This document shows positions 4,648 through 33,917 of a stretch of DNA of 64,000 nt, piece by piece. Numbering within the stretch: position 1 is the stretch's first letter; each line of letters starts with the position of its first letter. The stretch is from Alcaligenes faecalis (lineage in GTDB: Bacteria; Pseudomonadota; Gammaproteobacteria; Burkholderiales; Burkholderiaceae_B), in the NCBI RefSeq assembly GCF_041521385.1, contig NZ_CP168006.1:558001-622000 (forward strand). Reading direction: 5' to 3'. Under the pieces are notes generated by a model, which saw only the letters and a list, made by a program, of their open reading frames with translations, ran no database searches and was not told the DNA's origin. The position numbers and the translations under genes are program-made.

Positions 4648-4649
4648 GT

Positions 4650-6224: not shown

Positions 6225-6237
6225 TGACCACGCAATT

Positions 6238-6251: not shown

Positions 6252-6252
6252 T

Positions 6253-6281
6253 ATTTTACGGGGGAGTGAAAAACCTGACAA
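6253..6281 (-). promoter_or_regulatory. Promoter of MFS-marR operon
   Basis: On the minus strand: TTGTCA (-35, 6281-6276), 17-nt spacer, TAAAAT (-10, 6258-6253). Both hexamers match sigma-70 at 5 of 6 positions with ideal spacing. Transcription would start inside the palindrome at 6238-6251. Confidence 0.65.
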
Positions 6282-6381
6282 GCACTGACTGACTCAAGCC
6301 CTGCCCCTCCATCCTGGTGCACAATGGCACTCATTCGGAGAGTCATGCTTTCCACCCAAGTCTGTTCCATAGGAAAACAGT

Positions 6382-7107
6382 ATGAATATCATGATTGTGG
6401 GCGCCAGCATGGGTCTGGGACGCGCCTTGATGGACGGTTTGGCCCAAGATGGCAACACGCTGTATGGCGTGGCTAGACGGCCGCCCAGCTCCTTGACCAG
6501 CGCCCTGCAGCCAGACCCCAGCCACCGCCAACATTGGATCAGCGCCGACTTGTCCCAGCCTGACGCTGCCAGCCACTTGGCAGCCGCCTGCCCAGACTCG
6601 CTGGATGTGCTGATCTATAACCTGGGAATCTGGGAAGACACAGCATTCAGCCCAGAATACGATTTCATGTCGCAGTCCGATCAAGCTCTGCGCCGCCTGG
6701 TTGATGTAAATCTGACCGGCGCCTTATTGGCAATCCGCCATTTGCTGCCCAATTTGCTGCGCAGCAGCCAGCCCCGCTTGATTCTGACTGGCTCCACCTC
6801 AGGCCTGCGCCAAAACGGCCGTCCGGAAGTTGCTTTCGGGGCGACGAAATTTGCCTTGAATGGTTTAGCGGATAGCTTGCGCGAAGGCTATAGGAATCAA
6901 GGTCTGGCCGTCACTTGTCTACAACTGGGCTACCTCAATACGGAAGATGGCCTGGATGTTCCGCTGTCCACCGCCGCTGAGCGGGACCAGGGCGAGACTA
7001 TTCCAGTGCATGACGTGCTCACCATTGTGCGCAGCCTGCTGCAACTGTCTCCCGCCAGCTTCATACGCGAACTGACCCTACCCGCCCTGCGCGACCCGCG
7101 TTTTTAA
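6382..7107 (+). CDS. SDR-family protein lacking the catalytic tyrosine
   Basis: 241-aa Rossmann-fold protein of the short-chain dehydrogenase/reductase superfamily. The nucleotide-binding motif GASMGLG (residues 7-13), YNLG in place of NNAG (79-82) and a Ser cluster at 138-140 are present. The usual YxxxK reads F152-GAT-K156, so the catalytic Tyr is Phe. It may be non-catalytic, like NmrA-type sensors, or use another residue. ATG at 6382 has AGGA 7 nt upstream. It is divergent from the MFS-marR operon and could share its regulation; that is inference. Confidence 0.85.
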   Translation: MNIMIVGASMGLGRALMDGLAQDGNTLYGVARRPPSSLTSALQPDPSHRQHWISADLSQPDAASHLAAACPDSLDVLIYNLGIWEDTAFSPEYDFMSQSDQALRRLVDVNLTGALLAIRHLLPNLLRSSQPRLILTGSTSGLRQNGRPEVAFGATKFALNGLADSLREGYRNQGLAVTCLQLGYLNTEDGLDVPLSTAAERDQGETIPVHDVLTIVRSLLQLSPASFIRELTLPALRDPRF

Positions 7108-7326
7108 ACCGCAAGCGTCGCCACGTATTCACAAGGGGCATGGGACAATAAGGAAAAGAAAAAGCACTCTCTGCGGCTGATAGCGCATCTGGTGAGGCTG
7201 AAAAATCCGCCCGCCCGCACCTGCCTTCAAGCACAAAGACATTCGTTATTCGGCATTCGAGAGCATCAAGACAAGAGCAACGCCTTCAGGCCACAATGGT
7301 CGAGCAGGTCTATGCCTGCAAGCATA

Positions 7327-7356
7327 AAAAAGGGAGTGTTTTCGCACTCCCTTTTT
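7327..7356. terminator. Bidirectional terminator between SDR gene and DUF1330 gene
   Basis: GGGAGTG (7332-7338), loop TTTTCG, CACTCCC (7345-7351), flanked by five A on the left and five T on the right. It works in both directions and sits between two convergent genes. Confidence 0.9.
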
Positions 7357-7384
7357 CTGCCTGTCTAGATGGAATAGCCTGTTT

Positions 7385-7669
7385 TTACAGACCTTGCACC
7401 ACGTACATGGTCATATTAGCCGCGCCTTCACGTGCTTTACGGGCACGACGGTATTCCTCGGAATCGTGGAAAGCCTGGGCCTGCTCCAGCGTGTCAAACT
7501 CCATAACCACGGTACGCAAAGGCGCATTGCCTTCTAAAGCGACTGTTTCACCGCCACGCACCAACACTTTCACGTTGTGAGTTTTCATGGCGATGCTGGA
7601 AAACTCCTGGTACTGCTTGTACTGCTCCGGGTTGCTTACTTCGACATTAGCAATCAAATATGCGGGCAT
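7385..7669 (-). CDS. DUF1330 family protein
   Basis: 94-aa protein of the small ferredoxin-like dimeric alpha-beta-barrel fold. The family signature is visible: MPAYLIANVEVSNPEQYKQY at the N-terminus and VVMEFDTLEQAQAF followed by SEEYRRARKAR. Biochemical role unknown. ATG at 7669 has GGAGA 5 nt upstream. It follows kdsA by 18 nt on the same strand and ends at a strong terminator, so it is probably the last gene of a kdsA transcript. Confidence 0.88.
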   Translation of the reverse strand: MPAYLIANVEVSNPEQYKQYQEFSSIAMKTHNVKVLVRGGETVALEGNAPLRTVVMEFDTLEQAQAFHDSEEYRRARKAREGAANMTMYVVQGL

Positions 7670-7687
7670 ACTGTCTCCAAACTACTT

Positions 7688-8539
7688 TTAATAGCCGTGC
7701 TGCAAGGCACCGCTGTTTTTAACAATCGAATCGATCTGTTGCAGTGTCCGCAGCAAATCTGTCATCTGCGACAAGGGGACGGCATTGGGGCCATCAGACA
7801 AGGCCTTGTCCGGATTGGGGTGTGTTTCCATAAACACGCCAGCCACCCCTGCTGCAACCGCAGCACGCGCCAGCACGGGCACAAATTCACGTTGTCCGCC
7901 CGAAGAGGTTCCCTGCCCGCCCGGCAATTGAACCGAGTGTGTGGCATCAAAGACAACCGGGCAGTCCGTGGCGCGCATGATCGCCAAAGAGCGCATATCG
8001 GACACGAGATTGTTGTAGCCAAAGGAAGCGCCACGTTCACAGACCATGATGGTGGAGCCATCACCGCCCATTTCCATTGCCGCGGCACGTGCTTTTGCCA
8101 CCACCTGCACCATATCCTGAGGGGCCAGGAACTGACCCTTCTTGATATTCACGGGTTTCAGGGTAGCGGCACAGGCTTGAATAAAATCGGTCTGGCGGCA
8201 CAGGAAAGCCGGTGTTTGCAACACATCCACGACGGCCGCCACATCATCAACCTGGTCTTTATCGTGTACATCGGTCAAGACTGGCACTTTGTAGTGCGAG
8301 CGCACATCCGCCAGAATCTGCAGACCTTCCGCCATGCCAGGTCCACGATAAGACTTGCCCGAACTCCGGTTGGCCTTGTCAAACGAGCTTTTGTAGATAA
8401 AGGGGATACCCAGAGCCGAGGTAATTTCGGCAAGCTGACCTGCTGTATCAAACGCCATTTGACGCGATTCAATCACACAAGGGCCAGCGATCAGAAAAAA
8501 GGGCCGATCCAAGCCAACGTCGTAACCGCATAAATCCAT
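7688..8539 (-). CDS. kdsA: 3-deoxy-8-phosphooctulonate synthase (KDO8P synthase)
   Basis: Condenses phosphoenolpyruvate with arabinose 5-phosphate to give KDO 8-phosphate for LPS inner core. 283 aa from ATG 8539, which has GAGGT 7 nt upstream; the frame extends 12 codons further without support. [10 protein letters not shown] (residues 18-27), [23 protein letters not shown] and DATHSVQ are the family landmarks. Cytoplasmic. Grouped with pyrG and a VOC gene on the same strand, as in other Alcaligenaceae. Confidence 0.97.
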
Positions 8540-8615
8540 AATAGACCTCGTTTCAGTATTGCTGCATTCTCCCACATTCCTGACAGTGATGCTGCACCGT
8601 CGTGCAGCATCACTG

Positions 8616-8996
8616 TCAGCCCAATCGTTCGGCGATTTCGATCAGGTTCAAGTCCGGGTCGCGCACATAGATAGAGCGAATCGGGCCAGTAGCACCCGTA
8701 CGCTGTACAGGCCCTTCAATAATGGGCCAAGCGTGTGACTGTAGATGCTCGATCACCTGCTCCAGAGGAATGCTGGCGATAAAACACAGGTCCAGCGCCC
8801 CCGGCACTGGTAAATGCGCCTTGGGCTCGAACTCCTGCCCGCGCACATGCAAATTGATCTTTTGTGAGCCAAAGCTGAAAGCAATGCGTTCCTGTCCAAA
8901 AACCTCCTGCCTCATACCCAGAACTTGGGTATAAAAATGGATGGTGGCTTGCGGGTCCGTACAGGTCAGCACCCAATGATCCAATTGTTCGATCAT
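8616..8996 (-). CDS. VOC-superfamily (glyoxalase-like) protein
   Basis: 126-aa single-domain vicinal-oxygen-chelate protein. The two babab repeats start at [20 protein letters not shown] and [19 protein letters not shown] and close with [14 protein letters not shown]. His in LDHW and the last Glu are candidate metal ligands. The substrate cannot be assigned; such proteins include lyases, dioxygenases and resistance proteins. I chose ATG 8996 because GGGAG lies 7 nt upstream; the longer frame adds MLPAFLGVI. It follows pyrG downstream of a terminator. Confidence 0.88.
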
Positions 8997-9041
8997 GATT
9001 ACTCCCAGGAAAGCGGGCAACACACTTTGTCACCCCGAATG

Positions 9042-9068
9042 AAAAAGCCCGCATCGCGCGGGCCTTTT
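9042..9068 (-). terminator. pyrG terminator
   Basis: GCCCGC (9047-9052) pairs with GCGGGC (9058-9063), with A-tracts and T-tracts outside the stem. On the minus strand the stem is followed by TTTTTC. It starts 17 nt after the pyrG stop. Confidence 0.88.
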
Positions 9069-9084
9069 CAGTCATACCAAATTA

Positions 9085-10749
<1,665 letters not shown>

Positions 10750-10810
10750 TCAAATCAGGCGATAGCGGGAAATTTGGATTATAACGGCAAGCGTCCATGC
10801 TTGGCGACCC

Positions 10811-10846
10811 GACAAGTGGCATTTCACAGCGGAAATACCACTTGTC
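10811..10846. repeat. Long imperfect palindrome upstream of pyrG
   Basis: GACAAGTGG (10811-10819), one mismatch, ATTTC, 6-nt loop ACAGCG, GAAAT, one mismatch, CCACTTGTC (10838-10846). The stem is 15 nt per arm with one mismatch. No T-run follows on either strand, so it is not an ordinary terminator. It sits about 80 nt before the pyrG start and 34 nt after the aminopeptidase stop. Confidence 0.7.
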
Positions 10847-10879
10847 CTTGCAACTATTGACAAGAGCAGACGGTGGCGA

Positions 10880-12658
10880 TCAGATCGCCTGCGTCCTTTG
10901 CTCAAGCCACTTGCGTGCATCCCCCTGAACACGCGGCAAGAGACGTTCGCGCACCTGCTGATGATATTCATTGAGCCACTGGCGCTCGGCAGCCGTCAGT
11001 AGTGCGGCATCTATACAACGTGTATCAATGGGGCACAAGGTCAAGGTTTCAAAACGCAGAAACTGCCCGTACTCGCTGTGCATGGCCGGTACCGCCGCCA
11101 CCAGATTCTCAATACGAATGCCCCACTGACCGGGACGATACAAGCCAGGCTCGTTGGACGTAATCATGCCGGCACGCATGGCCGAATGAGGTCCGATACG
11201 ACCACGCCAGGAAATGGATTGCGGGCCTTCATGCACATTCATGAAGTAACCCACGCCATGGCCAGTGCCATGACCAAAGTCCAGGCCCTGCTCCCACAAA
11301 GGCTGACGGGCCAGTACATCAATTTGTTGACCGGCAATGCCTTCGGGAAACACCAGCATGGACAAGGACACCATGCCTTTCAGAACCAGCGTAAAATCAC
11401 GCATCTGCTCGGCAGACACCTGACCTACCGGCACGACACGGGTAATGTCCGTGGTCCCACCCTGATACTGCCCGCCCGAATCGATCAGCAGCAAACCATT
11501 GCCAGCAATACGGGCGTGGGACTGCTGGGTAGCCTGATAGTGCGGCATGGCACCATTGGCGTTATAGGCGGCAATCGTGCCAAAGCTAGGACTGACAAAA
11601 CCTTCCTGACGAGCACGGGCGGCGCAGATACGTTCATCCACATCCAGCTCATTGATATCGCTTTGCTGTTCAAACCAGGCGAAGAACTCGCACAAGGCAG
11701 CGCCGTCTTTTTCCATGGTTTCACGCACATGATCCAACTCGGCATCGGTCTTGCAAGACTTAAGCAATTGAGCTGGGTTGATATATTCGACCACCTTCAA
11801 ATGCGCCGCCAATTGAGCGGCCCAGGCCGTGGTTCGTGCCATATCCAGCAAGATGGGCATGGATGCTGGCAAGGCGCGCATGAAGGAGGACAGCTCGGTA
11901 TAGCCTTGTACTTGCACACCATCCACAGCCAGCGTGTCCTGTATGCCTGCCGACAGCTTGTTGCTATCCACAAACAGGAACGCCTGATCCGGGCCAATCA
12001 GCAAGTACGACAGGAACACCGGGTTATAGGACACATCACTGCCACGCAGATTCAGGGTCCAGGCAATATCATCCAGCGCACTGAGCAAATGCCAATGGGC
12101 GCCCTGCTCCTGCATGGCGGCTCGGGTGCTGCTCAAGTTTTCCTGACGAGTACGGCAGGCAAAAGGAGGCAGATGCTCCACCACCTGGCCAACAGGCGCA
12201 GCAGGCCGATCCGTCCAAATCGGGCTTAGCAAGTCGGCTTCCAGAACCCACTCCAGCTCCGGCGTGGCTTTTTGCCAGGCCAGCAGACTTTGTGCCGACA
12301 CCGACTGGCTATCCAATGCCACCCGCGATTGAACCGGCAGATGCTCGGCCAGCCAGTTGGCCGGCTCCGGCACCCCGGCCTCGCCCGCACGTTGCAATTG
12401 AATACCGCTGCCTTCCAGCTCCTTGGCGGCCTGTTCCCAATAACGACTATCGGTCCACAAACCGGCCCAATCAGCCGTCACCACCAACAGTCCGGCCGAC
12501 CCGACAAATCCGCTGAGCCACTGACGGCTCTTCCAGCGATCAGGCAGATATTCAGACAGATGCGGGTCGGATGTAGGCCAGATGCTTGCCTGCACGGACT
12601 GAAATTGCATTTGTTCGCGCAGCGCCTGCAAGCGTGCGGCAACGGGGGGATGGGCCAT
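10880..12658 (-). CDS. Xaa-Pro aminopeptidase, M24B family
   Basis: 592-aa metallopeptidase that removes N-terminal residues preceding proline. The size and three-domain layout (two creatinase-like N-terminal domains, then the pita-bread domain) match the long APP1 type rather than short E. coli PepP. Metal ligands are visible in DSGGQYQGGTTDITRV (two Asp), HGTGHGVGYFMNVHEGP (His) and the Glu of NEPGLY and RIEN. ATG 12658 has AAGGAAG 5 nt upstream; the longer frame is unsupported. No signal peptide, so cytoplasmic. Confidence 0.93.
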   Translation of the reverse strand: MAHPPVAARLQALREQMQFQSVQASIWPTSDPHLSEYLPDRWKSRQWLSGFVGSAGLLVVTADWAGLWTDSRYWEQAAKELEGSGIQLQRAGEAGVPEPANWLAEHLPVQSRVALDSQSVSAQSLLAWQKATPELEWVLEADLLSPIWTDRPAAPVGQVVEHLPPFACRTRQENLSSTRAAMQEQGAHWHLLSALDDIAWTLNLRGSDVSYNPVFLSYLLIGPDQAFLFVDSNKLSAGIQDTLAVDGVQVQGYTELSSFMRALPASMPILLDMARTTAWAAQLAAHLKVVEYINPAQLLKSCKTDAELDHVRETMEKDGAALCEFFAWFEQQSDINELDVDERICAARARQEGFVSPSFGTIAAYNANGAMPHYQATQQSHARIAGNGLLLIDSGGQYQGGTTDITRVVPVGQVSAEQMRDFTLVLKGMVSLSMLVFPEGIAGQQIDVLARQPLWEQGLDFGHGTGHGVGYFMNVHEGPQSISWRGRIGPHSAMRAGMITSNEPGLYRPGQWGIRIENLVAAVPAMHSEYGQFLRFETLTLCPIDTRCIDAALLTAAERQWLNEYHQQVRERLLPRVQGDARKWLEQRTQAI

Positions 12659-12703
12659 GCCAACTTCCTTTACATAAACAGCGTTCACGCACCGATCAAG
12701 CAT

Positions 12704-12735
12704 AAAAAAAGCTCCGACTCGCGCCGAAGCTTTTT
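12704..12735 (-). terminator. Terminator of the scoAB operon
   Basis: AAAAAGCT (12706-12713) pairs with AGCTTTTT (12728-12735), with further partial pairing inside and loop TCGC. The minus strand reads into a run of T. It lies 17 nt past the scoB stop, directly upstream of the aminopeptidase gene. Confidence 0.85.
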
Positions 12736-12751
12736 AAGCCAGAGAAACCGA

Positions 12752-13405
12752 TCAGGCCAACGCACTGACGTCCAGCGGGACGCCTGTCTTGGACTGAATG
12801 TACTCAAGGCTGACTTCTGGTGCCAACTCAAGCAACTTTAAACCATTTTCCGTCACTTCCATCACCCCCAGATCGGTAATGATGAGATCGACCACACCCA
12901 CGCCCGTCAGGGGCAAGGTGCAAGAAGGCAGAATTTTCAGGTCTTCCGTGCCGTCTTTCTTGGTGGCCACGTGTTCCATCAGAACCACGACGCGGCCAAC
13001 GCCAGCGACCAGGTCCATGGCGCCGCCCATGCCCTTGATCATCTTGCCGGGGATCATCCAGTTGGCCAGATCACCCTTTTCCGACACCTGCATGGCACCC
13101 AGAATCGCGATATTGATCTTGCCGCCACGAATCATGGCAAACGAGTCTGCCGAGGAAAAAATGGATGAGCCGGGCAAGGTCGTGATGGTTTGCTTGCCCG
13201 CGTTGATCAGGTCCGCATCAATCTTGTCTTCGGTCGGAAAGGGGCCAATGCCCAGCAAACCGTTTTCCGATTGCAGCCAGACTTCAATGCCCTCGGGCAC
13301 GTGGTTGGCAACCAGCGTAGGCAAACCAATACCCAGGTTGACGTAAAAGCCGTCCTGAAGCTCCAGGGCGGCACGTGCCGCCATTTGATCTCTATTCCAA
13401 GCCAT
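12752..13405 (-). CDS. scoB: 3-oxoacid CoA-transferase subunit B
   Basis: Beta subunit of the succinyl-CoA/acetoacetyl-CoA transferase type. 217 aa with the catalytic Glu in [11 protein letters not shown] (E47) and the following [20 protein letters not shown] segment. Works with subunit A encoded just upstream (19-nt gap) in use of acetoacetate or related 3-oxoacids. The exact acid is not proven by sequence. Confidence 0.95.
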
Positions 13406-13424
13406 TATTATCTTGCCTCGCTAA

Positions 13425-14123
13425 TCAGGAAGAACGAACGGTACGCTGTTCAATGCGCTTTTCGGGCTGGGCATTGAGCACGATACGGTGCACGTAAATG
13501 CCAGGCAAATGCACATCGTCCGGGTCCAGGCTGCCGGTCTCGACAATTTCCTCGACCTCGACAAGGGTAATTTTCCCCGCCATAGCCACGTTCGGGTTGA
13601 AGTTACGTGCCGTCTTGCGAAACACCAGGTTACCGCTGCGGTCGGCCTTGTAGGCTTTGACCAGCGACACATCGGGCACCAGGGCCTCTTCCATCACGTA
13701 TTGCTGACCGTTGAACTCGCGGATTTCCTTGCCGTCAGCCACAATGGTGCCCACACCGGTTGCGGTAAAGAAAGCAGGAATGCCTGCGCCACCGGCACGC
13801 AACTTTTCAGCCAGTGTGCCTTGGGGAGTGAACTCCAGCTCCAGCTCGCCGGCCAGATACTGGCGCTCGAACTCCTTGTTTTCACCCACGTAGGAGGAAA
13901 TCATCTTGCGGATCTGGCGTGTTTCCAGCAACTGGCCCAGACCAAAGCCATCCACCCCGGCATTATTGCTAATGCAGGTCAGGTTTTTGACTTCGCTATC
14001 GCGCAGTGCAGCAATCAGCGCCTCGGGAATTCCGCACAAGCCGAACCCACCTACCGCGACTGTCTGTCCATCAGCAACGACCCCCTGCAACGCCTCCTTG
14101 GCGCTTGGATAGACTTTATTCAA
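13425..14123 (-). CDS. scoA: 3-oxoacid CoA-transferase subunit A
   Basis: Alpha subunit, 232 aa, with [16 protein letters not shown] near the N-terminus and [22 protein letters not shown] in the middle. The longest frame begins at 14192, but homologues start at [11 protein letters not shown]. The codon there is TTG at 14123, preceded by GGAGAG 4 nt upstream, so I place the start at this TTG. First gene of the scoAB operon. Confidence 0.93.
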
Positions 14124-14245
14124 TTGACTCTCCAATAACTCTTTAATTGGCCTAAACAGCAAACTTTGTCCAATAATGCCGCTATGCACCATCAGGCGCT
14201 ATCAGGCATTTTACGACTTGACTATGCTTTCCGTATACGTAAAGC

Positions 14246-14668
14246 TTAACCCTGAAAAACCGAGTGTATCTGTTTACGCTCATCTTCGGTCCAAGGCTGT
14301 GAACCGCCTTGGGGGTTAATGGACACTAGCACACAGCGGCCACGAGCATAAATGACATCGGCTTGATTTGCGTCACCTACAAGGACTTCCAACTCAATGC
14401 TGCTGCCACCGACTTTCAGCAATTTGTGCACAATCCGCACAGTGGCCGGATACAGGACCGAACGCAGGAAATCCAGGCTGGCGTGCGCCAGCACCCCGGT
14501 ACGTGGAGAAGGTGGCACCATGCCCAGCTTCATCATTAACTGGACACGGGCTTCCTCGATGTAGCGAAAGTAGACCGTATTGTTAACATGATTCATGGCA
14601 TCCAGATCGCCCCAACGCACGGCAATATCAAAAGTGGCTCCTGCACCAGAATCTACGACTTGAGTCAT
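14246..14668 (-). CDS. 4HBT-family acyl-CoA thioesterase
   Basis: 140-aa single hotdog domain. RWGDLDAMNHVNNTVYFRYI carries the catalytic Asp and the HVNN signature of the YbgC/FadM type. It hydrolyses acyl-CoA, with chain length unknown. ATG 14668 has AAGGAG 8 nt upstream. It is divergent from the ETF-ubiquinone oxidoreductase gene across 175 nt, which fits a shared acyl-CoA theme. Confidence 0.92.
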   Translation of the reverse strand: MTQVVDSGAGATFDIAVRWGDLDAMNHVNNTVYFRYIEEARVQLMMKLGMVPPSPRTGVLAHASLDFLRSVLYPATVRIVHKLLKVGGSSIELEVLVGDANQADVIYARGRCVLVSINPQGGSQPWTEDERKQIHSVFQG

Positions 14669-22296: not shown

Positions 22297-22644
22297 CTAG
22301 TGGCTCTTGGACTTACCGAGCGGACAAGATTCACAATAGCCGCATTGGGTTAGGGCTTGCTTCATGCTACAAACCGAGCGTCGGCAGGCGACCACTCGAA
22401 TACCGGACTTCGAGGCAGCCGCCCGAAAGGTTTTCATGACATTGTGACCCAAAAAGTCAGTCAGCAAAATCAACAAATCGGTGCCAGAAGGCAATTGCAA
22501 GGTTTTTTTCTGGTGTGCAGGATCACGCCCGCTAATATGATGTTTGATCGAGATATTGTGGATCTTGAGCAGGTCGGGAATGTTCCCCAGACGGTCTGCT
22601 CCAACCACGACTGCACTGACGTATTGAGACACAGGAAGCTCCAT
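22297..22644 (-). CDS. DUF2325 protein under Fur control
   Basis: 115 aa of the DUF2325 family; function not established. An N-terminal Rossmann-like half (AVVVGADRLGNIPDLL) is followed by a Cys-rich C-terminus with C87, C92, C101, C104 and C107 (CRRSVC and CGYCESC), which could bind a metal or iron-sulfur cluster. It is transcribed alone from a promoter overlapped by a near-consensus Fur box at 22660-22678. The predicted transcript starts about 12 nt before ATG 22644 and there is no Shine-Dalgarno, so it may be nearly leaderless. Confidence 0.88.
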   Translation of the reverse strand: MELPVSQYVSAVVVGADRLGNIPDLLKIHNISIKHHISGRDPAHQKKTLQLPSGTDLLILLTDFLGHNVMKTFRAAASKSGIRVVACRRSVCSMKQALTQCGYCESCPLGKSKSH

Positions 22645-22659
22645 TGGCTAAGAAAGTGA

Positions 22660-22678
22660 GATAATGATAATCATTCTT
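22660..22678. promoter_or_regulatory. Fur box
   Basis: GATAATGATAATCATTCTT matches the 19-bp E. coli Fur consensus at 17 positions. A second overlapping symmetry, TGATAAT (22665-22671) and ATTATCA (22679-22685), extends the site rightwards. It covers the -10 and spacer of the DUF2325 promoter. Confidence 0.88.
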
Positions 22679-22692
22679 ATTATCATAGTCAA
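22664..22692 (-). promoter_or_regulatory. DUF2325 gene promoter
   Basis: Minus strand TTGACT (22692-22687), 17-nt spacer, TATCAT (22669-22664). Good sigma-70 hexamers with ideal spacing; the Fur box overlaps the -10. Confidence 0.65.
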
Positions 22693-25534: not shown

Positions 25535-26428
25535 ATGGACTGGGATAATCTGCGTTACTTTCTGGAAGTGGCCCGCTGCCAACGGATTAGCGTTGCCGCC
25601 CAGCGGCTGGGGGTACAACACAGCACCGTGGCTCGCCGTATCCAGGCCCTGGAACAAGAACTGGGCTTGCGCCTGTTTCACAAGTCCACCGTCAGCGGCT
25701 ATAGCCTGACCAGTGAAGGGCTGAATCTGCAGCAACGCATGGAGCCAGTAGAAAACCGCTTGCTGGCGGCACGAGATGCGATTACCGGCAAAGCCAGACC
25801 CTTGACGGGCAAGCTGCGACTGGGCTGCACCGAGGCCTTTGGCAGCTATGTGCTGACGCCCTTGCTCAGCATTTTTCAGTCTCAGTATCCGGAGCTGACG
25901 CTGGAACTGTTGCCCGTCCCCCGGCCTATCAGCCTGTCACGTCGGGATGCCGATTTGGCCATTGCACTGGAGCGCCCGCAACGCGGTCCTTACTGGTGTA
26001 CGCGCCTGGCGGACTACAGTTTGCGGCTCTATGCTCATCAGGACTATTTGCATAGCCACCCGCCCATAGACAGCGTGCAGGATCTGTCCCAGCATCGCTT
26101 TATTGCCTATGTGGATGATCTGGTGTTCAGCGACAGCCTGCGCTATCTGGAAGAAATCGTCCGGTCCGCCGCCGTACGCTTTCGTAGCACCAGCGTGATT
26201 GCGCAGTACCAGGCCACCTTGCAGGGGCAAGGAATTGCCGTTCTGCCCTGCTTTCTGGCGAAAACCGATCCGCGCCTGCGTTGCGTTCTACCCGACCAAG
26301 TGGAATTGCGTCGACGCTTCTGGATGTTTTGCCATGAAGAACAACGCCAGAATCCCAGCCTGACCCGGCTATGGCACTTTTTGAAGCAATCAGTGGAAGA
26401 GCGGCAAGACCTGCTGGATGGGGCATAA
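25535..26428 (+). CDS. LysR-family regulator (divergent from mmsA)
   Basis: 297 aa with an N-terminal helix-turn-helix (RISVAAQRLGVQHSTVARRI, about residues 17-36) and a LysR substrate domain. The HSTVARRI variant is typical of LysR proteins next to dehydrogenase genes. Divergence from mmsA suggests it controls mmsA and itself; this rests on position only. It ends at a good terminator. Confidence 0.92.
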   Translation: MDWDNLRYFLEVARCQRISVAAQRLGVQHSTVARRIQALEQELGLRLFHKSTVSGYSLTSEGLNLQQRMEPVENRLLAARDAITGKARPLTGKLRLGCTEAFGSYVLTPLLSIFQSQYPELTLELLPVPRPISLSRRDADLAIALERPQRGPYWCTRLADYSLRLYAHQDYLHSHPPIDSVQDLSQHRFIAYVDDLVFSDSLRYLEEIVRSAAVRFRSTSVIAQYQATLQGQGIAVLPCFLAKTDPRLRCVLPDQVELRRRFWMFCHEEQRQNPSLTRLWHFLKQSVEERQDLLDGA

Positions 26429-26464
26429 AAACAAACCTCCTTCTATACATCTCAAGACATAGAG

Positions 26465-26491
26465 AAAGACCGAACCTGCGTCGGTCTTTTT
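26465..26491 (+). terminator. Terminator after the LysR gene
   Basis: AAAGACCGA (26465-26473), loop ACCTGCG, TCGGTCTTT (26481-26489), then TT. A 9-bp perfect stem 36 nt after the stop. Confidence 0.88.
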
Positions 26492-26604
26492 ACGTTTACG
26501 CCCCCCTACCTCCTGCTTGCCTCGCCTCAGACATCACGTCCCATCTGTAGCCTCATTCCTGAACACTTAATTCCCTTCTTCAGAATTCTGTTCAATTTTT
26601 GGGG

Positions 26605-26623
26605 AATGCGAATTATTTACATT
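26605..26623. promoter_or_regulatory. Fur-like box at the receptor promoter
   Basis: AATGCGAATTATTTACATT is symmetric at 14 of 19 positions and agrees with the 7-1-7 Fur core (TGATAAT-N-ATTATCA) at 10 of 14 positions. It ends inside the -35 hexamer. The match is weaker than the box at 22660, so Fur binding is likely but not certain. Confidence 0.55.
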
Positions 26624-26650
26624 GACCGACGGTCGGTCGATAATTACAAT
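26622..26650 (+). promoter_or_regulatory. Promoter of the chelate-uptake operon
   Basis: TTGACC (26622-26627), 17-nt spacer, TACAAT (26645-26650): 5 of 6 matches in each hexamer and ideal spacing. Transcription would start near 26657, about 44 nt before the receptor ATG. Confidence 0.75.
26624..26638. promoter_or_regulatory. TetR-type operator in the promoter spacer
   Basis: GACCGAC, one G, GTCGGTC: a perfect 15-bp palindrome lying over the end of the -35 and into the spacer. ACCGAC-N-GTCGGT is a common TetR-family operator shape. The TetR gene at 33285-33896, at the other end of the operon, is the obvious candidate ligand sensor; this is inference. Confidence 0.7.
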
Positions 26651-26700
26651 CACCTCCGCTTGACTCTCTAATCTCTCCTACTCCTTAAGAAACTGCTGTT

Positions 26701-28929
26701 ATGAACCTCCCCTTGTTTTCCAGAAACCGCCCCTTAAAAACGAGCAGGTCGGTTTCACCTCGTTTGCGCTACACCACACTGGCCACGGCCTTGATGCTGA
26801 TTCATGCTCCTTCTACACAGGCACAAGACAGCAGCGATGTCACCATCCTGCCCTCGGTCACGGTCACCTCAGGTGGTGGCTCGGATACGGAAAACGGTCC
26901 GGTACAAGGCTATGTGGCAGAAAAATCCCGCATCGGCACCAAGACCAGCACCTCCATTCTGGAAACCCCCCAATCGGTTTCCGTCGTCACTCGCGAACAA
27001 ATGGATTTGCAGCAAGCCTCCAGCAGCAGTGCCGCCTTGCGTTATGCCGCTGGTGCGACCAGCGAACGCTATGGCGGCTTTGGCAGCTATCTGGACATGA
27101 CCCGTATTCGCGGCGTAGACGCGGACTACTACCTGGATGGGCTGCGTGTTATTGGCAACCCCGGTAGCTGGCTGCCACAAGTAGATGCCTATTCGCTGGA
27201 ACGGATTGAAGTGCTGCGCGGGCCAGCCGCCGCCATTTACGGTCAAGGCACAGGCGGCGGCATCGTGAATCAAGTCAGCCGCAAGCCACAGGACGTCGCC
27301 GCCCATGAGCTGAATATTCAGTATGGCCGTTTCAACCGCAAACAACTGGGCTTTGACAGCACCGGCCCTATCAATCAGGACGGCACCTTGCTGTACCGAG
27401 TTACAGCCAGCGGGCTGGACAGCGAAGGGCAAATTGAAGACACACGCCACAAACGCGTCTACCTCGCCCCTGCCATTACCTGGCGTCCCAACACACAAAC
27501 GTCATGGACGATTCTGGCAACCCATTCGCGTGAGCCCGAGCTCCCCAACTACAACAGCCTGCCCGCTGCCGTGCTGGGCCTGGAAGGCGGAGCCTATCCC
27601 GAAGTGGATCGCCATCGCAATTTCACGGACAGCAACTTCGCCCACTCCTCCCGCAAGCAAAACTCCATCAGCTCCTTGTTCGAGCACGAGTTCGACAACG
27701 GCTGGAGCTTTGTCAGCAACGCTCGCTATATGTATGTGCAATCCAATATTCAGCGCGGTGTGGTGTACGGCTATCAGGACGTCAATGGCCTGCCACAACT
27801 GAAAGGCTCGTATGAACTGACGCCTGCCAAAGTCAACACTTTCTCGATGGACAACTATCTGCGCGGCGATCTGAAGCTAGGAGCGACGACTCACACAATT
27901 CTGGCTGGCGTGGACTATTCCAAGGGCACACTCAGAAACGAGCTGTATAGCGTCGGTCCCATCCTGTTTGACCCGTATGACGACATTCATCATCCAAATA
28001 TCTACCCGGATTTCACCGCCAGCTACGCTGCGCCCTGGAAAGTCCAGCAAGACTTCACCCGCGTCGGCGTGTATCTGCAAGACCAGATTGCTTACGGGCG
28101 CTGGCGTCTAACCTTGAGTGGCCGACACGACTGGTCCAAAACCGACGATCAGACCCATAGCTACGCTTCCACTGCGCGCGACACCCATCAAAACGACAAG
28201 AAATGGAGTGGCCGTGCCGGCTTAAGCTACCAGTTCGATATGGGCCTGGCTCCCTACATCAGCTACGCCACTTCCTTCGATCCGATCCTGGGCACCAATT
28301 ACAAAGGCGAGGCCTTTGTGCCTATCGAGACCAAGCAGACCGAGCTGGGCATCAAGTACCACCCGGCGGGATCGAAAACCCTGCTTAGCGCCGCCATCTT
28401 CCAGCTTGAACAAAGCAATGTGAAAACAGCGGATGCGAATCACCTGGGCTTCAATACGCAAGCCGGAAAAGTGCGTAGCCGCGGCCTGGACCTGCAAGCC
28501 ACCACGGAACTGGCACGAGACCTGAACCTGATTGCCAGCTATACCTATTTGGACAACGAGCTGGTTCAGGACGCCAACTATCAGGGCAAAAGCCTGACGC
28601 AAACGCCTAAACACAGCGCCTCACTCTGGATGGACTACGCCTTCAGACAAGGCCCGCTCAATGGCCTGCAAGTGGGGGCCGGTGTGCGCTATCTGGGCAA
28701 GACCTATGGTGATCCCACCAACAAGCTGGAAGTCCCCTCGGCCACCCTGGTGGACCTGGGTCTGAACTACAACCTGGGCATGCTTTCCCCGGACCTGAGT
28801 GGCGCCACCGTCAGCCTGAATGTGAACAATCTGACAAACAAGCAATACATCGCCAGTTGCACCTCCCGCCTGTATTGCTTCGTTGGCCAGGACCGAACCA
28901 TTACAGCCAGCCTGAACTACCGCTGGTGA
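26701..28929 (+). CDS. TonB-dependent siderophore/chelate receptor
   Basis: 742-aa outer-membrane receptor. A signal peptide of about 41 residues ends STQA-QD, followed by a TonB-box-like LPSVTVTS, a plug domain (ILETPQSVSVVTREQM to about residue 190) and a 22-strand barrel. The C-terminus has the Cys pair CTSRLYC and ends ASLNYRW, as in hydroxamate-type (FhuA/FoxA-like) receptors. There is no N-terminal signalling domain, so it is not a FecA-type transducer. The stop overlaps the next ATG by 1 nt (TGATG). Confidence 0.93.
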   Translation: MNLPLFSRNRPLKTSRSVSPRLRYTTLATALMLIHAPSTQAQDSSDVTILPSVTVTSGGGSDTENGPVQGYVAEKSRIGTKTSTSILETPQSVSVVTREQMDLQQASSSSAALRYAAGATSERYGGFGSYLDMTRIRGVDADYYLDGLRVIGNPGSWLPQVDAYSLERIEVLRGPAAAIYGQGTGGGIVNQVSRKPQDVAAHELNIQYGRFNRKQLGFDSTGPINQDGTLLYRVTASGLDSEGQIEDTRHKRVYLAPAITWRPNTQTSWTILATHSREPELPNYNSLPAAVLGLEGGAYPEVDRHRNFTDSNFAHSSRKQNSISSLFEHEFDNGWSFVSNARYMYVQSNIQRGVVYGYQDVNGLPQLKGSYELTPAKVNTFSMDNYLRGDLKLGATTHTILAGVDYSKGTLRNELYSVGPILFDPYDDIHHPNIYPDFTASYAAPWKVQQDFTRVGVYLQDQIAYGRWRLTLSGRHDWSKTDDQTHSYASTARDTHQNDKKWSGRAGLSYQFDMGLAPYISYATSFDPILGTNYKGEAFVPIETKQTELGIKYHPAGSKTLLSAAIFQLEQSNVKTADANHLGFNTQAGKVRSRGLDLQATTELARDLNLIASYTYLDNELVQDANYQGKSLTQTPKHSASLWMDYAFRQGPLNGLQVGAGVRYLGKTYGDPTNKLEVPSATLVDLGLNYNLGMLSPDLSGATVSLNVNNLTNKQYIASCTSRLYCFVGQDRTITASLNYRW

Positions 28930-30086
28930 TGCCCTTGTCCGTTCAACGCTATACCCGACGCGATGTCCTGACCCGCCTGCTGGCGGGCGGGGCCTTGCTC
29001 GCCAGCCCGGCTTTGCGGGCTGGCACTGCCAACGTCATCGAGGATATTGCCGGACGGCGCGTCTCCTTGCGCCAGCCCATCAAACGGCTCCTGCTGGGGG
29101 ATGGCCCCTTGGCCTATGTGATGGCCCTGCTCAAACCGGAAGATCCCTTTGGGGACATCGTGGGCTGGGGCGACAACTTCCGCGCGGCGGACCTGGATGG
29201 TTATCAAGCGTATTTGCACCGCTTTCCGAGCATAGACCATATTCCTACCTTCTCCAGCCGGACCGTGGACTCTATCGGCACTGAACTCGCCATTTCATTG
29301 GAGCCCGATGTTCTCATCATGAACCTAAGCTCCAAGCCTGCCGCCGAGTCCTCGGGTTTGATGACGCGTCTGGCGCAGGCGAGGGTGCCCGTAGTATTTG
29401 TGGACTTTCGCACACGCATGTTTGGCAATACGGCCCGCAGCATCCAGATTCTGGGGGAACTGCTGGGACGCCAGGCACAGGCGCAGGCTTTTCTGAACTT
29501 TCGACAAACGCAGATTGATCGGGTCAGCACAGCCCTGCAGTCCCTTCAGCACCGGCCCACGATCATGATTGAACGCGCCGCCGGGCTGTATGACGACTGC
29601 TGCCTGAGCTATGGCGATGGCAACTTTGGCGAGTTGGTTGCCGCAGCCGGGGGCGACAATCTGGGCACCCGCTTTCTGCATGGCACGTTTGGCACTCTCC
29701 ATCCCGAACAGGTAATTGAATCCGACCCGGATATCGTGCTGGTCACCGGCGCGAACTGGGCCTTGTATTCACCAGCGGGCGATTGGGTCAATCTGGGACC
29801 AGGAGCCAATCCCGAACAAGGCCAGGCACGCCTGCGACGCTTGATGAGCCGGCCCGCCTACCGTTCCCTGTCCGCCGTACAGGAAGGTCGGGTTCACGCC
29901 ATCTGGCACCCCTTCTACGACAACCCCTACTACTTTATTGCGCTACAACGTATCGCCAAGTGGCTGCATCCCGAACGGTTCCGCACCCTGGACCCGGACG
30001 CGACGTTTGAAGAGCTGCATCGGCGCTTTCTTCCCGTTTCTTATCAGCCAGGCTATTGGCTTAGCCTGAGCGGAGCTTCCTCATGA
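28929..30086 (+). CDS. Tat-exported ABC substrate-binding protein (FecB/FhuD/BtuF type)
   Basis: 385-aa periplasmic binding protein for a chelate. Start ATG 28929 overlaps the receptor stop; the longer frame inside the receptor is spurious. The N-terminus has a twin-arginine signal (YTRRDVLTRLLAGGALLASP, RR at 10-11, cut near ALRA). The class III fold is marked by GRRVSLRQPIKRLLL and the central helix joining two lobes. Tat rather than Sec export implies folding before transport. It delivers ligand to the FecCD permease encoded next. Confidence 0.9.
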   Translation: MPLSVQRYTRRDVLTRLLAGGALLASPALRAGTANVIEDIAGRRVSLRQPIKRLLLGDGPLAYVMALLKPEDPFGDIVGWGDNFRAADLDGYQAYLHRFPSIDHIPTFSSRTVDSIGTELAISLEPDVLIMNLSSKPAAESSGLMTRLAQARVPVVFVDFRTRMFGNTARSIQILGELLGRQAQAQAFLNFRQTQIDRVSTALQSLQHRPTIMIERAAGLYDDCCLSYGDGNFGELVAAAGGDNLGTRFLHGTFGTLHPEQVIESDPDIVLVTGANWALYSPAGDWVNLGPGANPEQGQARLRRLMSRPAYRSLSAVQEGRVHAIWHPFYDNPYYFIALQRIAKWLHPERFRTLDPDATFEELHRRFLPVSYQPGYWLSLSGASS

Positions 30087-31144
30087 GTACCCCCCTTGTA
30101 TCGGGATCAGCCCCATCAGGCCAGCAGTTTTACACCCGTCTGATTCATCGCAGACGGCTATTGCTGCTGGCGATCAGCATTCTGACCCTGCTCTGTTTTC
30201 TGGCCGACCTGTCCTTGGGACAAGCGCATTACCGCCCGACCCAGGTACTGGCCGCCTTATGGGATAGCCAGGCCCCCCTCTCCGTCCAGGTGATTCTGTG
30301 GGATATACGCCTGCCAGTGGCGTTAACGGCCTTGGTCGTTGGCGCCAGCCTGTCCGTAGCAGGTGTACAAATGCAAACCGTACTGGGCAATCCCTTGGCC
30401 AGTCCCTTCACCCTGGGCCTGTCTGCGGCAGCCAGTTTTGGGGCGGCGCTGGGCTTGATTCTGGGTATCAGTATCTTGCCAGCATCCGCCGTCTCATTTG
30501 CCATTCCCGCCAATGCCTTTCTGGTCTCCATGCTGGCGGCCTTGTTCATTTACCGGCTAAGCCAAAAACGGGGTATCACCACCGAGATGATTGTGCTGCT
30601 GGGCACCACCCTGGTCTTTACCTTCACCGCCTTGCTGGAAGCCTTGCAATACGTCGCCCCCGATCAGGCCCTGTCTGCCGTGGTGTTCTGGACCATGGGC
30701 AGTTTGTCGCGCAGCAACTGGCTCAAACTGGCCATCATGAGCGGCGTCTTGCTGACGGTTTCCCTTATTTTTGCCCGCAACGCCTGGGCCTTGACGGCTC
30801 TGCGGCTGGGCGAGGCCCGTGCCAGCAGTCTGGGGATTCCGGTGGCTCACCTGCGCCTGAAAGGTATTTTGCTGGGAAGCCTGCTGGCCTCTGTCTGCGT
30901 CTCTTTTGTAGGCACGATCGGTTTTGTGGGGCTGGTCGGCCCCCATATTGCCCGTCTGCTTGTTGGTGAAGATCAACGCTTTCTGCTGCCCGCCTCTGCA
31001 CTGTGTGGCGCCTGCATGCTGTCGGCCGCCTCAGTATTGAGCAAAACCCTGGTGCAAGGACAAGCCTTGCCCATTGGCATTGTGACTTCATTGGTTGGGG
31101 TGCCTTTGTTCTTCATCCTGATTTTGCGCACAAGGAAAGGCTAA
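30083..31144 (+). CDS. FecCD-family ABC permease
   Basis: 353 aa with about ten membrane helices, a homodimer-forming BtuC/FhuB-type permease. Landmarks are the N-terminal RLPVALTALVVGASLSVAGV, the GNPLASPFTLGLSAAASFGA loop and the coupling-region GTIGFVGLVGPHIARLL. ATG 30083 overlaps the previous stop (ATGA) and has GGAG 8 nt upstream. Confidence 0.95.
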   Translation: MSTPLVSGSAPSGQQFYTRLIHRRRLLLLAISILTLLCFLADLSLGQAHYRPTQVLAALWDSQAPLSVQVILWDIRLPVALTALVVGASLSVAGVQMQTVLGNPLASPFTLGLSAAASFGAALGLILGISILPASAVSFAIPANAFLVSMLAALFIYRLSQKRGITTEMIVLLGTTLVFTFTALLEALQYVAPDQALSAVVFWTMGSLSRSNWLKLAIMSGVLLTVSLIFARNAWALTALRLGEARASSLGIPVAHLRLKGILLGSLLASVCVSFVGTIGFVGLVGPHIARLLVGEDQRFLLPASALCGACMLSAASVLSKTLVQGQALPIGIVTSLVGVPLFFILILRTRKG

Positions 31145-31950
31145 TGGATTTGCTCAACGTCACCGATCTGTCCGTCTCCTTTGCCTCACGCCAGATTCTG
31201 CACAAGCTCAACTTTGGTCCCTTGAAGGCAGGCTCCGTCACCGCCCTGCTGGGCTCCAATGCCGCCGGAAAATCGACACTGCTCAAGCGTCTCGCTGGGG
31301 AGCTAGGCGGAACAGGACACGTAGAGGTGCTGGGCCAGCCGCTGGAGTCCTGGCCCCCTTTTCACCCCCATCGCCCGGCCCATGTCCCACAAGATATTTC
31401 CATGAGTTCGTCCCTGCGTGTCTTTGAGGCCGTCCTGCTGGCCTGCAAGCAAGGTGGTCGCTGGGGCGTCGAGGATCAAGAGCTGGATAAAGTCAGCCAG
31501 ATGCTGAAAACCCTGCAAATCGAGGCTTTGGCAGACCGGGAGCTGGCCGCCCTTAGCGGTGGGCAACGACAGTTGGTCTCTATCGCCCAAGCATTGATTC
31601 GCCAACCCCGCGTGCTGTTGCTCGATGAGCCGAGCAGCGCACTGGATCTGCAAAACCAGTATGAAGTTTTTGACTTGCTGCGCCGTGTGGCCCAAGAACA
31701 AGCCATGTGCATTGTCATGGCCATCCATGACTTGAACCACGCCCTGCACTTTAGCGATTGGGTTGTGGTCCTGCATCAAGGCCAGGTTGAAGCCATGGGA
31801 TCGCCTTTAGACACGCTGACCCCGGAGCTGCTTGAAAAGGTCTATGGCGTACAAGCCCGCCTGGAGATGTGTTCACAAGGCCGTCCCTTCCTGCTGGTGG
31901 ATCGCTCCGTACGCAAACAATGGCGCTCTCAAACACAGGTAGCCCCATGA
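31144..31950 (+). CDS. ABC transporter ATPase (FecE/BtuD type)
   Basis: 268-aa ATPase powering the FecCD permease. Walker A GSNAAGKST (37-45), signature LSGGQRQ (137-143), Walker B RVLLLDEP (156-163) and the switch His in AIHDLNHAL are intact. ATG 31144 overlaps the permease stop (TAATG) and has AAGGAAAGG upstream; an extension of the frame into fecCD is spurious. Confidence 0.96.
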   Translation: MDLLNVTDLSVSFASRQILHKLNFGPLKAGSVTALLGSNAAGKSTLLKRLAGELGGTGHVEVLGQPLESWPPFHPHRPAHVPQDISMSSSLRVFEAVLLACKQGGRWGVEDQELDKVSQMLKTLQIEALADRELAALSGGQRQLVSIAQALIRQPRVLLLDEPSSALDLQNQYEVFDLLRRVAQEQAMCIVMAIHDLNHALHFSDWVVVLHQGQVEAMGSPLDTLTPELLEKVYGVQARLEMCSQGRPFLLVDRSVRKQWRSQTQVAP

Positions 31951-33260
31951 ACACGCCCCCCTTGATTCTCTTAGCCATGCCCAGCATTCATTCAGGCGCC
32001 TGGCGCTACCCAGGAGCGCATCCGGGTTTCCAGACCGATTTTGAGCAAATGAAATGGTTTGCCCAAACCTTGGAACGCGCCTGCTTTGATGGCCTGTTCC
32101 TGCCCGATACGCTAGCCATCCGGGCCGCCCCCATGGAAGCACTGATGCGGGGGCACAGCACGGTGACGCTGGACCCGCTAACCGTGCTGCCAGCCCTGGC
32201 TGCCGTCACCGAGCATCTGGGCCTGATCGCCACGGCCAGCACGACCTATAACGAACCCTACATGCTGGCCCGCCGCCTGGCCTCTTTGGACCGCATCAGC
32301 GCAGGCCGCGCGGGATGGAATCTGGTGACATCCAGCAATCCCAATGAAGCGGCCAACTTTGGCCAAGAAGAGCATATGGAGCACAGCAACCGCTATCATC
32401 GCGCTCGTGAGTTCTGCACTGTCATGGATGGCTTGTGGGAAAGCTGGGAAGAAGACGCCTTTTGTCGGGACGCCCAGACCGGCCAGTACTTCCAGCCCGC
32501 CAAGATGCAGGTTCTGAATCATCAGGGCGAACATTTCTCGGTACGCGGCCCCTTGAATGTCGAAAGACCTGTCCAAACCCGTCCCGTCATCGTGCAAGCA
32601 GGAGCGTCAGAGGCGGGGCGCCAGGTTGCTGCCGAAACCGCCGAAGTGATCTTTACCTATCAAACAGACTTGTCTTCAGCCCAGGATTTTTATGCCGATA
32701 TGCAAGCCCGAGCCAAGGCTGCTGGGCGGGAACAAGCCCTGAAAATCATCCCGGCGGTTTTTGTAGTCTTGGGAGACAGCCTGGAGCAAGCTCAGGCCAA
32801 ACGACGCCGATTAGATGAGCTGGTTGACCAAGCCAGTTGTCTGGCTACCCTGTCCATTGCTCTGGGACACGATATTTCCGGCTATGACCGTAACGGCCCC
32901 CTACCTGAAATACCGGACAGCAATGCCAGTAAAAGCGGCCGTGAACGTGTGGTGCGGCTGGCAAAAACCGAAAACCTGAGCATTCTGGAGCTGGCCAGGC
33001 GGATTTGTGGTTATCAGGGTTTGGAGATGGTGGGGACCGCCAGCATGGTGGTCGACCAGATGCAGCATTGGCTGGAGCAATCGGCGGCAGATGGCTTCAA
33101 CATCATGTTTTCCCATCTACCTGGCGGTGTCAGCGAGTTTGCCGAACAGGTCGTGCCGGAGCTTCAAAGACGGGCTTTGCTGCGAACCCGCTATGAGGGC
33201 CGCAGCTTTCGGGAACATCTGGGCTTGCTGAAACCGGCGCAAGGCTACTCGCGCCGCTAA
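31947..33260 (+). CDS. LLM-class flavin-dependent monooxygenase (NtaA/SnaA/DszA family)
   Basis: 437-aa TIM-barrel monooxygenase of the two-component kind that uses reduced FMN supplied by a separate reductase. Family landmarks are WRYPGAHPGF, FDGLFLPD, the ITAS-like LIATASTTYNEPY, SAGRAGWNLVTSSNPNEAANFG and QAGASEAGRQVAAETAEVIF. Known relatives attack nitrilotriacetate, EDTA, dibenzothiophene sulfone and streptogramin. ATG 31947 overlaps the ATPase stop (ATGA). No flavin reductase is encoded here, so one must act in trans. Its place at the end of a chelate-uptake operon suggests it degrades the imported ligand. Confidence 0.92.
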   Translation: MNTPPLILLAMPSIHSGAWRYPGAHPGFQTDFEQMKWFAQTLERACFDGLFLPDTLAIRAAPMEALMRGHSTVTLDPLTVLPALAAVTEHLGLIATASTTYNEPYMLARRLASLDRISAGRAGWNLVTSSNPNEAANFGQEEHMEHSNRYHRAREFCTVMDGLWESWEEDAFCRDAQTGQYFQPAKMQVLNHQGEHFSVRGPLNVERPVQTRPVIVQAGASEAGRQVAAETAEVIFTYQTDLSSAQDFYADMQARAKAAGREQALKIIPAVFVVLGDSLEQAQAKRRRLDELVDQASCLATLSIALGHDISGYDRNGPLPEIPDSNASKSGRERVVRLAKTENLSILELARRICGYQGLEMVGTASMVVDQMQHWLEQSAADGFNIMFSHLPGGVSEFAEQVVPELQRRALLRTRYEGRSFREHLGLLKPAQGYSRR

Positions 33261-33284
33261 GTCTTGCGGGCCCGGCCCTGGTTC

Positions 33285-33896
33285 TTAACAGCCGGGGCTA
33301 GGTAACAGGCGCATACAGGCATCGGCCACTGCCTGCGCAAAAGGCAAGCTATCGCTGGCTTGCGCCGCAATAATGTCATCCGTCGCTCCATGAACGCCCG
33401 AATACATCAGCAAACCCACAATTCTGGGGTTTGCCGGTGCCCACAAGCCAACGTCCATGCCGCCTTCAATAATGGCCAGCAGTTGATCCAGAATCGCGTT
33501 TTTGGCCTGGTTGCTGCGGTCATGATGGTGATGCTTGATGTAGACCACGTCGTGAACCTTGTAGGTCTCCACATAGACCGTGACGCTGGTACAAATCCAG
33601 GCACGCAGCTTCTGGGCCCAGTCATCCGCCGGGCAAGCGTCTACGGCTTGTTCCAGACGCTCCAGAAAAGAGTCGGTATAGCGTTTGGCCAGGGCATCCA
33701 GCATTTCATTTTTGGACGCGAAGTAGTGATAGAAGGTACCTTTGCCAACCTGTGCCTGCGCCACGATGTCATTGATCGTGGTGGCCTCAAAACCCTGCTC
33801 AAGAAACAGGGTCTGGGCCGCATTCATCAACTCATCAAGACGCACCTGCGCCGGCTTGGTGCGGGGAGGCTTCGTATCGGCAGTCTTCAAGGTCAT
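33285..33896 (-). CDS. TetR-family regulator
   Basis: 203 aa. The N-terminal helix-turn-helix is clear (ATTINDIVAQAQVGKGTFYHYF, about residues 38-59) and the C-terminal ligand domain includes an HHHH run. The longest frame begins with TTG at 33911; ATG 33896 is preferred. It converges on the uptake operon with a 24-nt gap and no clear terminator between them. Probable repressor of the operon via 26624-26638. I found no copy of that palindrome before its own start. Confidence 0.9.
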   Translation of the reverse strand: MTLKTADTKPPRTKPAQVRLDELMNAAQTLFLEQGFEATTINDIVAQAQVGKGTFYHYFASKNEMLDALAKRYTDSFLERLEQAVDACPADDWAQKLRAWICTSVTVYVETYKVHDVVYIKHHHHDRSNQAKNAILDQLLAIIEGGMDVGLWAPANPRIVGLLMYSGVHGATDDIIAAQASDSLPFAQAVADACMRLLPSPGC

Positions 33897-33917
33897 GGTT
33901 CGGATTCTCAACGACGT

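Follow-up and report, generated by a model that had tools for sequence, protein, structure and literature searches.

A putative ferric-chelate uptake cassette with a terminal flavin monooxygenase gene, acquired by Alcaligenes faecalis

We have analyzed a stretch of 64,000 nucleotides (nt) of the genome of Alcaligenes faecalis (contig NZ_CP168006.1, positions 558,001 to 622,000; hereafter the window, from whose first letter positions are counted) and describe a cassette of six genes in which a siderophore-type uptake system is followed by a flavin-dependent monooxygenase. Five of the genes lie on the plus strand. They code for a TonB-dependent siderophore-type receptor of 742 amino acids (aa) (26701..28929; PF07715 and PF00593, with 384.9 bits for TIGR01783 over a cut-off of 223.5), a periplasmic binding protein of 385 aa with a twin-arginine leader (28929..30086; PF01497), a FecCD permease of 353 aa (30083..31144; PF01032, 269 bits), the ATPase of an ATP-binding cassette (ABC) transporter, of 268 aa (31144..31950; PF00005), and a luciferase-like monooxygenase (LLM) of 437 aa dependent on flavin mononucleotide (FMN) (31947..33260; PF00296 and TIGR03860). 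Each of the five is intact and has an ATG start, and successive genes overlap by 1, 4, 1 and 4 nt. The sixth gene, coding for a TetR-family regulator (PF00440), is convergent with them on the minus strand (33285..33896, with its ATG at 33896). An initial annotation made from the letters and open reading frames had already described five overlapping, translationally coupled genes and had named their families, and both descriptions were confirmed here. Receptor, class III binding protein, FecCD permease and ATPase stand together as one unit, as in TonB-FecCD siderophore uptake systems, and the unit extends beyond the genes to include a promoter at 26607-26652.

This cassette is an acquired, self-contained unit, since its site is empty in all nine of the other genomes of the genus that we compared. 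The insert covers about 7.5 kb (about 26425..33917), from a lysR-type gene to a gene that we take to be lptG, and holds the six genes and their promoter and nothing else, at a single clean site. In the other genomes these two flanking genes are almost adjacent, the gap between the aligned flank ends being of 35, 40, 36, 35, 36, 74, 85 and 67 nt in eight of them and of 468 nt in the ninth, a genome more distant than the others in which the lysR-type gene did not align at its end. Nor was a close relative of the monooxygenase found elsewhere in these nine genomes (best matches 38-41%). The six genes are unremarkable in G+C (0.556-0.604), no tRNA was found in the window and there was no convincing repeat at the ends of the insert. 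Carriage by plasmids was considered and rejected, the best plasmid match reaching 59% for the enzyme and 41% for the receptor. Among 5,426 genomes of Escherichia coli none matched the query over 80% of its length at one place; the best matches covered 3%, a piece of the ATPase.

A sigma-70-like promoter, TTGACC-17-TACAAT (26622..26650, plus strand), precedes the receptor gene. Most of its 17-nt spacer is occupied by a palindrome, GACCGACGGTCGGTC (26624..26638, plus strand), that starts within the -35 hexamer, is the only copy in the window and is the predicted operator of the TetR regulator. The same geometry is found ahead of the receptor gene in the two relatives of the cassette described below, as TTGACC-17-TATAAT in a genome of the same family (G031, stretch L070) and as TTGACT-17-TAAAAT in Photobacterium ganghwense (stretch L110). 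Both have the palindrome, and in P. ganghwense a gene of the major facilitator superfamily (MFS) is preceded by the same layout of promoter and palindrome. The promoter scan showed no overall excess (3 promoter-like sites over a mean of 2.6 in shuffled sequence). The exact 17-mer TTGACYGACSGTCRGTC has one site in the genome, and when two mismatches were allowed the pattern was not enriched (7 matches versus 32 for the reversed control). No palindrome of this kind precedes the TetR gene itself; the predicted operator belongs to the import operon's promoter, which supports the earlier statement that this operon comes with its own TetR. Binding of the regulator to the spacer is predicted from statistics and conservation.

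The same promoter has two boxes resembling the binding site of the ferric uptake regulator (Fur). The one just 5' of the -35 (TGCGAATTATTTACA, 26607..26621, plus strand) matches 10 of 14 positions and is weak as a single site. The other covers the -10 (CGATAATTACAATCA, 26638..26652, plus strand), with 11 of 14 matches, and just one other place in the window has at least 11. Matches were scored against TGATAATNATTATCA, which we take to be the Fur core. In the 50 bases 5' of the palindrome, a region chosen after the sequence had been inspected, the three orthologous promoters had 10, 10 and 11 matches, and their sum of 31 in 42 was reached by one of 2000 dinucleotide shuffles. Taken singly and scored with a 19-base Fur consensus, the promoters were weaker: they matched at 13, 12 and 13 of 19 positions, values that 4, 21 and 15 of 300 shuffles equalled, and the best match of P. 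ganghwense lay elsewhere in its promoter. Control of the import operon by Fur is thus likely, judging by these matches. Together with the siderophore-type receptor and the likeness of the binding protein to YiuA (see below), the boxes support the link to iron made in the initial annotation. A cobalamin riboswitch upstream of the operon was also considered, and rejected because neither it nor any other known RNA gave an Rfam match near the gathering score between 26300 and 34100.

The regulator appears to have a different history from the transporter. We found 88 plasmid records matching the TetR and fetched eight of them (40-67% identity). A divergent and homologous MFS gene stands beside the TetR gene in seven, from Salmonella, Burkholderia (two), Salinivibrio, Pseudomonas aeruginosa, Proteus and Shinella, and a codirectional one in Tistrella. 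The closest, on a Salmonella plasmid, is 67% identical to the TetR of the window. A palindrome of the type GAC-GAC-N-GTC-GTC was found near the TetR/MFS pair in seven of the eight records, Salinivibrio having none. In G031 and P. ganghwense the TetR gene is likewise beside a divergent MFS gene, of the DHA2 type in both, whereas in the window no MFS gene is adjacent, the next gene being lptG, and the palindrome is found in the promoter of an import operon. Since its relatives and the palindrome stand with MFS genes, the regulator is most likely that of an exporter, taken over by the import operon.

In the genome of A. faecalis itself, the sole other near-perfect match to the palindrome pattern is located about 2.25 Mb away, with one mismatch, between a TetR gene and an MFS gene that is the closest homologue in the genome (54%) of the MFS gene of G031. 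The divergent TetR/DHA2-MFS pair of this genome (near 2.83 Mb; 10552-14298 of stretch L153) has the same type of palindrome and a Fur-like box, TGAGAATTATTATCG, with 12 of 14 matches (0 of 300 shuffles). It adjoins a gene with a Ferric_reduct domain and could encode an iron-linked exporter. Fur-like boxes were also found in the TetR/MFS promoters of P. ganghwense (11 matches; 11 of 300 shuffles) and Burkholderia arboris (10; 7 of 300), and none in those of G031, P. aeruginosa and Salmonella (258, 66 and 300 of 300). A separate observation concerns an HHHH motif in the ligand domain of the TetR, possibly a metal or ligand site. It is kept in the relatives from Burkholderia, Salinivibrio, P. aeruginosa, G031 and P. 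ganghwense, reads HHHQ in Salmonella and is lost in more distant ones. As a mark of chelate operons the motif was rejected, because the Burkholderia, Salinivibrio and P. aeruginosa relatives have it beside MFS genes alone.

The monooxygenase had been described as an enzyme of the NtaA/SnaA/DszA type, and its membership in the family as such is clear, with 517.6 bits for the TIGR03860 'NtaA/DmoA family' model over a curated cut-off of 279.7. Of the eight residues named as contacts of the FMN docked into NtfO2, seven are kept (F51, T96, T128, H146, Y150, Q217 and F236), and A58 is replaced by P53. A closer kinship with the enzymes attacking nitrilotriacetate (NTA) and ethylenediaminetetraacetate (EDTA) did not emerge. 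The best relatives of solved structure by sequence are NtfO2, a biosynthetic enzyme, and the C-S enzymes YtnJ/CmoJ and BdsA/DszA; by fold, BdsA and NTA monooxygenase (3sdo) share the first place. EmoA ranks among the weaker family members in both comparisons. A tree of 90 rows included six solved enzymes (NTA monooxygenase, YtnJ, DszA/BdsA, DmoA, LadA and NtfO2, with EmoA, HcbA1 and RcaE left out). In it the enzyme of the window pairs with the Photobacterium one as its sister (100/97) rather than with the one from G031, a genome of the same family as A. faecalis. The three make up one clade (100/100), nested in a clade of 21 rows (100/100) that contains none of the six solved enzymes. The expected grouping with the NTA-type monooxygenase failed to appear, 3sdo being placed apart even though the folds tie, and an NTA/EDTA enzyme in the narrow sense (NtaA, EmoA) was rejected on the tree and the sequence scores. 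The sister relationship with Photobacterium rather than with G031 points to horizontal transfer. No partner flavin reductase was found among the seven genes typed between 25535 and 33899, the rest of the genome not being searched. A literature search on 9HRJ, one of the two solved-structure neighbours 9hrj and 9ht5, gave unrelated matches only.

Only two further genomes yielded orthologs of the enzyme (77-81%). G031, found among 268 genomes of the family, has the full cassette with the TetR, with identities of 68% (receptor), 73% (binding protein), 80% (permease), 71% (ATPase), 77% (enzyme) and 70% (TetR), and its genes also overlap, by 4, 1, 4 and 8 nt. The second is P. ganghwense, the sole clade member in 296 genomes of its family. 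Leaving aside the genome under study, samples from the genus (10 genomes), the class (369) and the order (399) yielded no further member of the clade; two additional matches at 59% from the order fall outside it. These samples overlap partly, and only the best few candidates per genome were scored; the scan of genome contigs used exact peptide patterns that, by eye, seem to be absent from the G031 enzyme, so members can be missed.

In P. ganghwense the cassette is present twice (1057-11299 of stretch L110), both copies being partly eroded, one with TetR and MFS genes and the other with the monooxygenase. In the latter, receptor (72%) and enzyme (81%) are both intact, and between them lies a single frame fusing the start of the binding protein to the end of the ATPase. 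The other copy, upstream, retains permease (61%), ATPase (52%), TetR (53%) and the MFS gene, with a receptor remnant only and no enzyme. No intact binding protein was found in this 21-kb locus. The remaining genes of the two copies may together supply what each copy lacks; alternatively, the enzyme is useful by itself or the locus is in decay.

The co-occurrence of this LLM clade with FecCD operons, proposed as a check in the initial annotation, was examined in these genomes. The enzyme gene adjoins this receptor in all three genomes of the clade, whose hosts belong to two families, and the full set is present in two. Among the 18 nearest relatives outside it (the rest of the 21-row clade) no FecCD match was found in the fetched flanks, mostly of 8-10 kb a side, with one side shorter in L075, L076 and L149; one of the 18 (L078) has an unrelated receptor (33%) about 4 kb from the enzyme. 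In a survey of the family covering 40 stretches (41 of the 51 enzyme matches listed, the own genome apart) a FecCD gene was present in the G031 stretch only, and a receptor match of any kind in four. Because of this, the tie to iron transport is a trait of the three-member clade and not of the enzyme family.

For the receptor, the best solved relative is FetA (3qlb; enantio-pyochelin), with 471 bits, followed by chains named CntO (pseudopaline) and FoxA (415) and by FhuA (396). Four hydroxamate-type NCBIfam models score best, yet all stay far below their cut-offs: FhuA (532.7 against 803), FoxA (436.7 against 1300), PRK14050 (479.7 against 884) and PRK14049, ferrioxamine B (477.2 against 904). 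Likewise, the best specific model for the binding protein, ferrichrome/ferrioxamine B, gives 185 bits against a cut-off of 374. By these scores a hydroxamate is only a possible ligand. The pair of cysteines at the C-terminus of the receptor had been taken to indicate hydroxamates. This argument was rejected, since FetA and the chains named FoxA and CntO carry such a pair too and it is not diagnostic.

The best solved relative of the binding protein is YiuA of Yersinia pestis (6b2x), with 285 bits. YiuA is described as having a basic triad, R64/R165/R223, plus H331 and Y334 (PMC5683015). In our alignment R165, H331 and Y334 are kept, an Arg is found one place before R223, and Pro takes the place of R64. 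This position is also Pro in G031 and is Ala in the P. ganghwense fragment, versus Arg in YiuA and in four other aligned relatives, and the replacement suggests a ligand of altered shape or charge. Besides the binding protein of the window, those of G031 and of a Pseudoroseomonas relative carry the twin-arginine leader, which is absent from three others aligned. As a side observation on relatives of the binding protein, permease and ATPase, a small methyltransferase gene precedes the set directly, in either orientation, in Pseudoroseomonas (L142), Sinorhizobium (L143) and Chelatococcus (L145); the fourth set fetched, from Paracoccus (L144), is without it.

Our best reading, to which we give about even chances, is a self-regulated cassette that imports a ferric chelate and then oxidizes its ligand, the chelate most likely being a siderophore made by another organism. 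Under such a scheme, iron shortage would take Fur off the promoter, and the chelate or its product inside the cell would take TetR off the spacer; as both releases would be required, the promoter would act as an AND gate, a double lock. Receptor, binding protein exported by twin-arginine translocation, and FecCD homodimer with its ATPase would carry the intact chelate to the cytoplasm. There the monooxygenase, with O2 and with FMNH2 supplied by a general flavin reductase, would cut a C-N, C-S or C-C bond of the ligand, which would then grip iron less, the fragments perhaps being used or exported. We infer the ligand, the reaction, the release of iron and the action of the enzyme on what is imported. 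Only tentatively do we propose the more specific version, an oxygen-dependent use of siderophores in which an LLM monooxygenase in a mobile cassette opens or dealkylates an imported ferric siderophore and frees its iron, switched on only when iron is low (Fur) and the ligand present (exporter-derived TetR). A parallel for an enzyme processing the ligand beside a transporter of this kind is provided by the nearest FecCD system of the same genome (permease 49%; near 2.64 Mb, 4459-9133 of stretch L127). Its binding protein, ATPase and permease genes are flanked by two small hydrolase-like genes, one matching PF00756 (esterase) and the other, without family match, so judged by eye; it is perhaps an esterase-type siderophore system. 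Uptake followed by oxidation is further favored by the coupled gene order, the full cassette with TetR in G031, the place of the enzyme beside this receptor throughout its clade but away from FecCD genes in the fetched flanks of its 18 nearest relatives, the Fur-like boxes adjoining the palindrome, the insertion of these genes alone at one site, and the replacement of R64 in the binding protein.

Several points weigh against uptake followed by oxidation of the ligand. The ligand is one that we infer, the Fur boxes are weak when taken singly, the insert includes no flavin reductase gene, the co-occurrence of enzyme and transporter comes from three genomes, two with the full set, and in P. ganghwense the enzyme and the receptor have outlived the eroded transporter genes between them. 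The last point is what would be expected if the enzyme gene were merely the last one of an iron-regulated operon and acted on an unrelated substrate. We consider this the least probable of the alternatives, given that the gene overlaps that of the ATPase by 4 nt in the window and by 8 nt in G031, and that it has remained next to this receptor in hosts from two families in spite of the horizontal transfer indicated by the tree. The cassette might instead serve nutrition, importing a metal-bound organosulfur compound or amine to be cut as a source of S, N or C, with iron release incidental. The nature of the best solved relatives by sequence, the tie between BdsA and NTA monooxygenase by fold and the lack of FecCD genes in the fetched flanks of the nearest enzyme relatives (55-59%) all fit this; however, the Fur-like boxes, receptor, binding protein and permease point to iron and the insert carries no further catabolic gene, so we judge it unlikely. 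Still less probable is a role in defence, with the enzyme inactivating a siderophore-like toxic natural product that enters here, the exporter-derived TetR sensing the toxin and, in relatives, the MFS pump removing it. Such a role would account for the divergent MFS genes beside the TetR in G031, P. ganghwense and seven fetched records, with the palindrome in all but Salinivibrio, but the cassette of the window lacks an exporter and itself provides for high-affinity import of the very compound to be inactivated, for which a defence would have no need.

The routes usually assumed for the release of iron from imported siderophores are reduction, hydrolysis and proton exchange. If the proposed uptake and oxidation are true, an oxidative step encoded in the transport operon would be an additional, O2-dependent route of iron release, and the bacterium could destroy the siderophores of its competitors while taking their iron. 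The rarity of the cassette and its scattered distribution suggest a rare ligand. Its parts are of known kinds, and it is their combination with an acquired, putatively double-locked promoter that is new. The uptake proteins are of the same families as in the FetA (enantio-pyochelin) and YiuABC (Y. pestis) systems, but the insert has no gene for an esterase, a reductase or biosynthesis, a flavin monooxygenase gene coming last. The enzyme shares family score, fold and FMN-site residues with other TIGR03860 enzymes (NTA monooxygenase, EmoA, DszA/BdsA, DmoA, YtnJ/CmoJ, HcbA1, RcaE, NtfO2), in a clade of its own apart from the solved ones placed in the tree. As for the regulator, protein and palindrome type are common to it and the divergent TetR/MFS pairs. 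Caulobacter hiuABC, according to the accessible part of its description, is similar in that a Fur-regulated xenosiderophore receptor gene shares an operon with genes processing the imported siderophore (PMC12424826). That text describes a system without ABC transporter genes, thought to use a periplasmic PepSY-type reductase, and names no oxygenase for it. Among the literature matches listed, with subscription journals mostly outside the coverage, none dealt with a siderophore uptake operon that contains an LLM monooxygenase.

Elsewhere in the window, a strong cluster of Fur boxes, GATAATGATAATCATTCTTATTATC (22654-22690, up to 17 of 19 matches), is located just 5' of an open reading frame of 115 aa on the minus strand (22297-22644), presumably coding for a protein resembling DUF2325.

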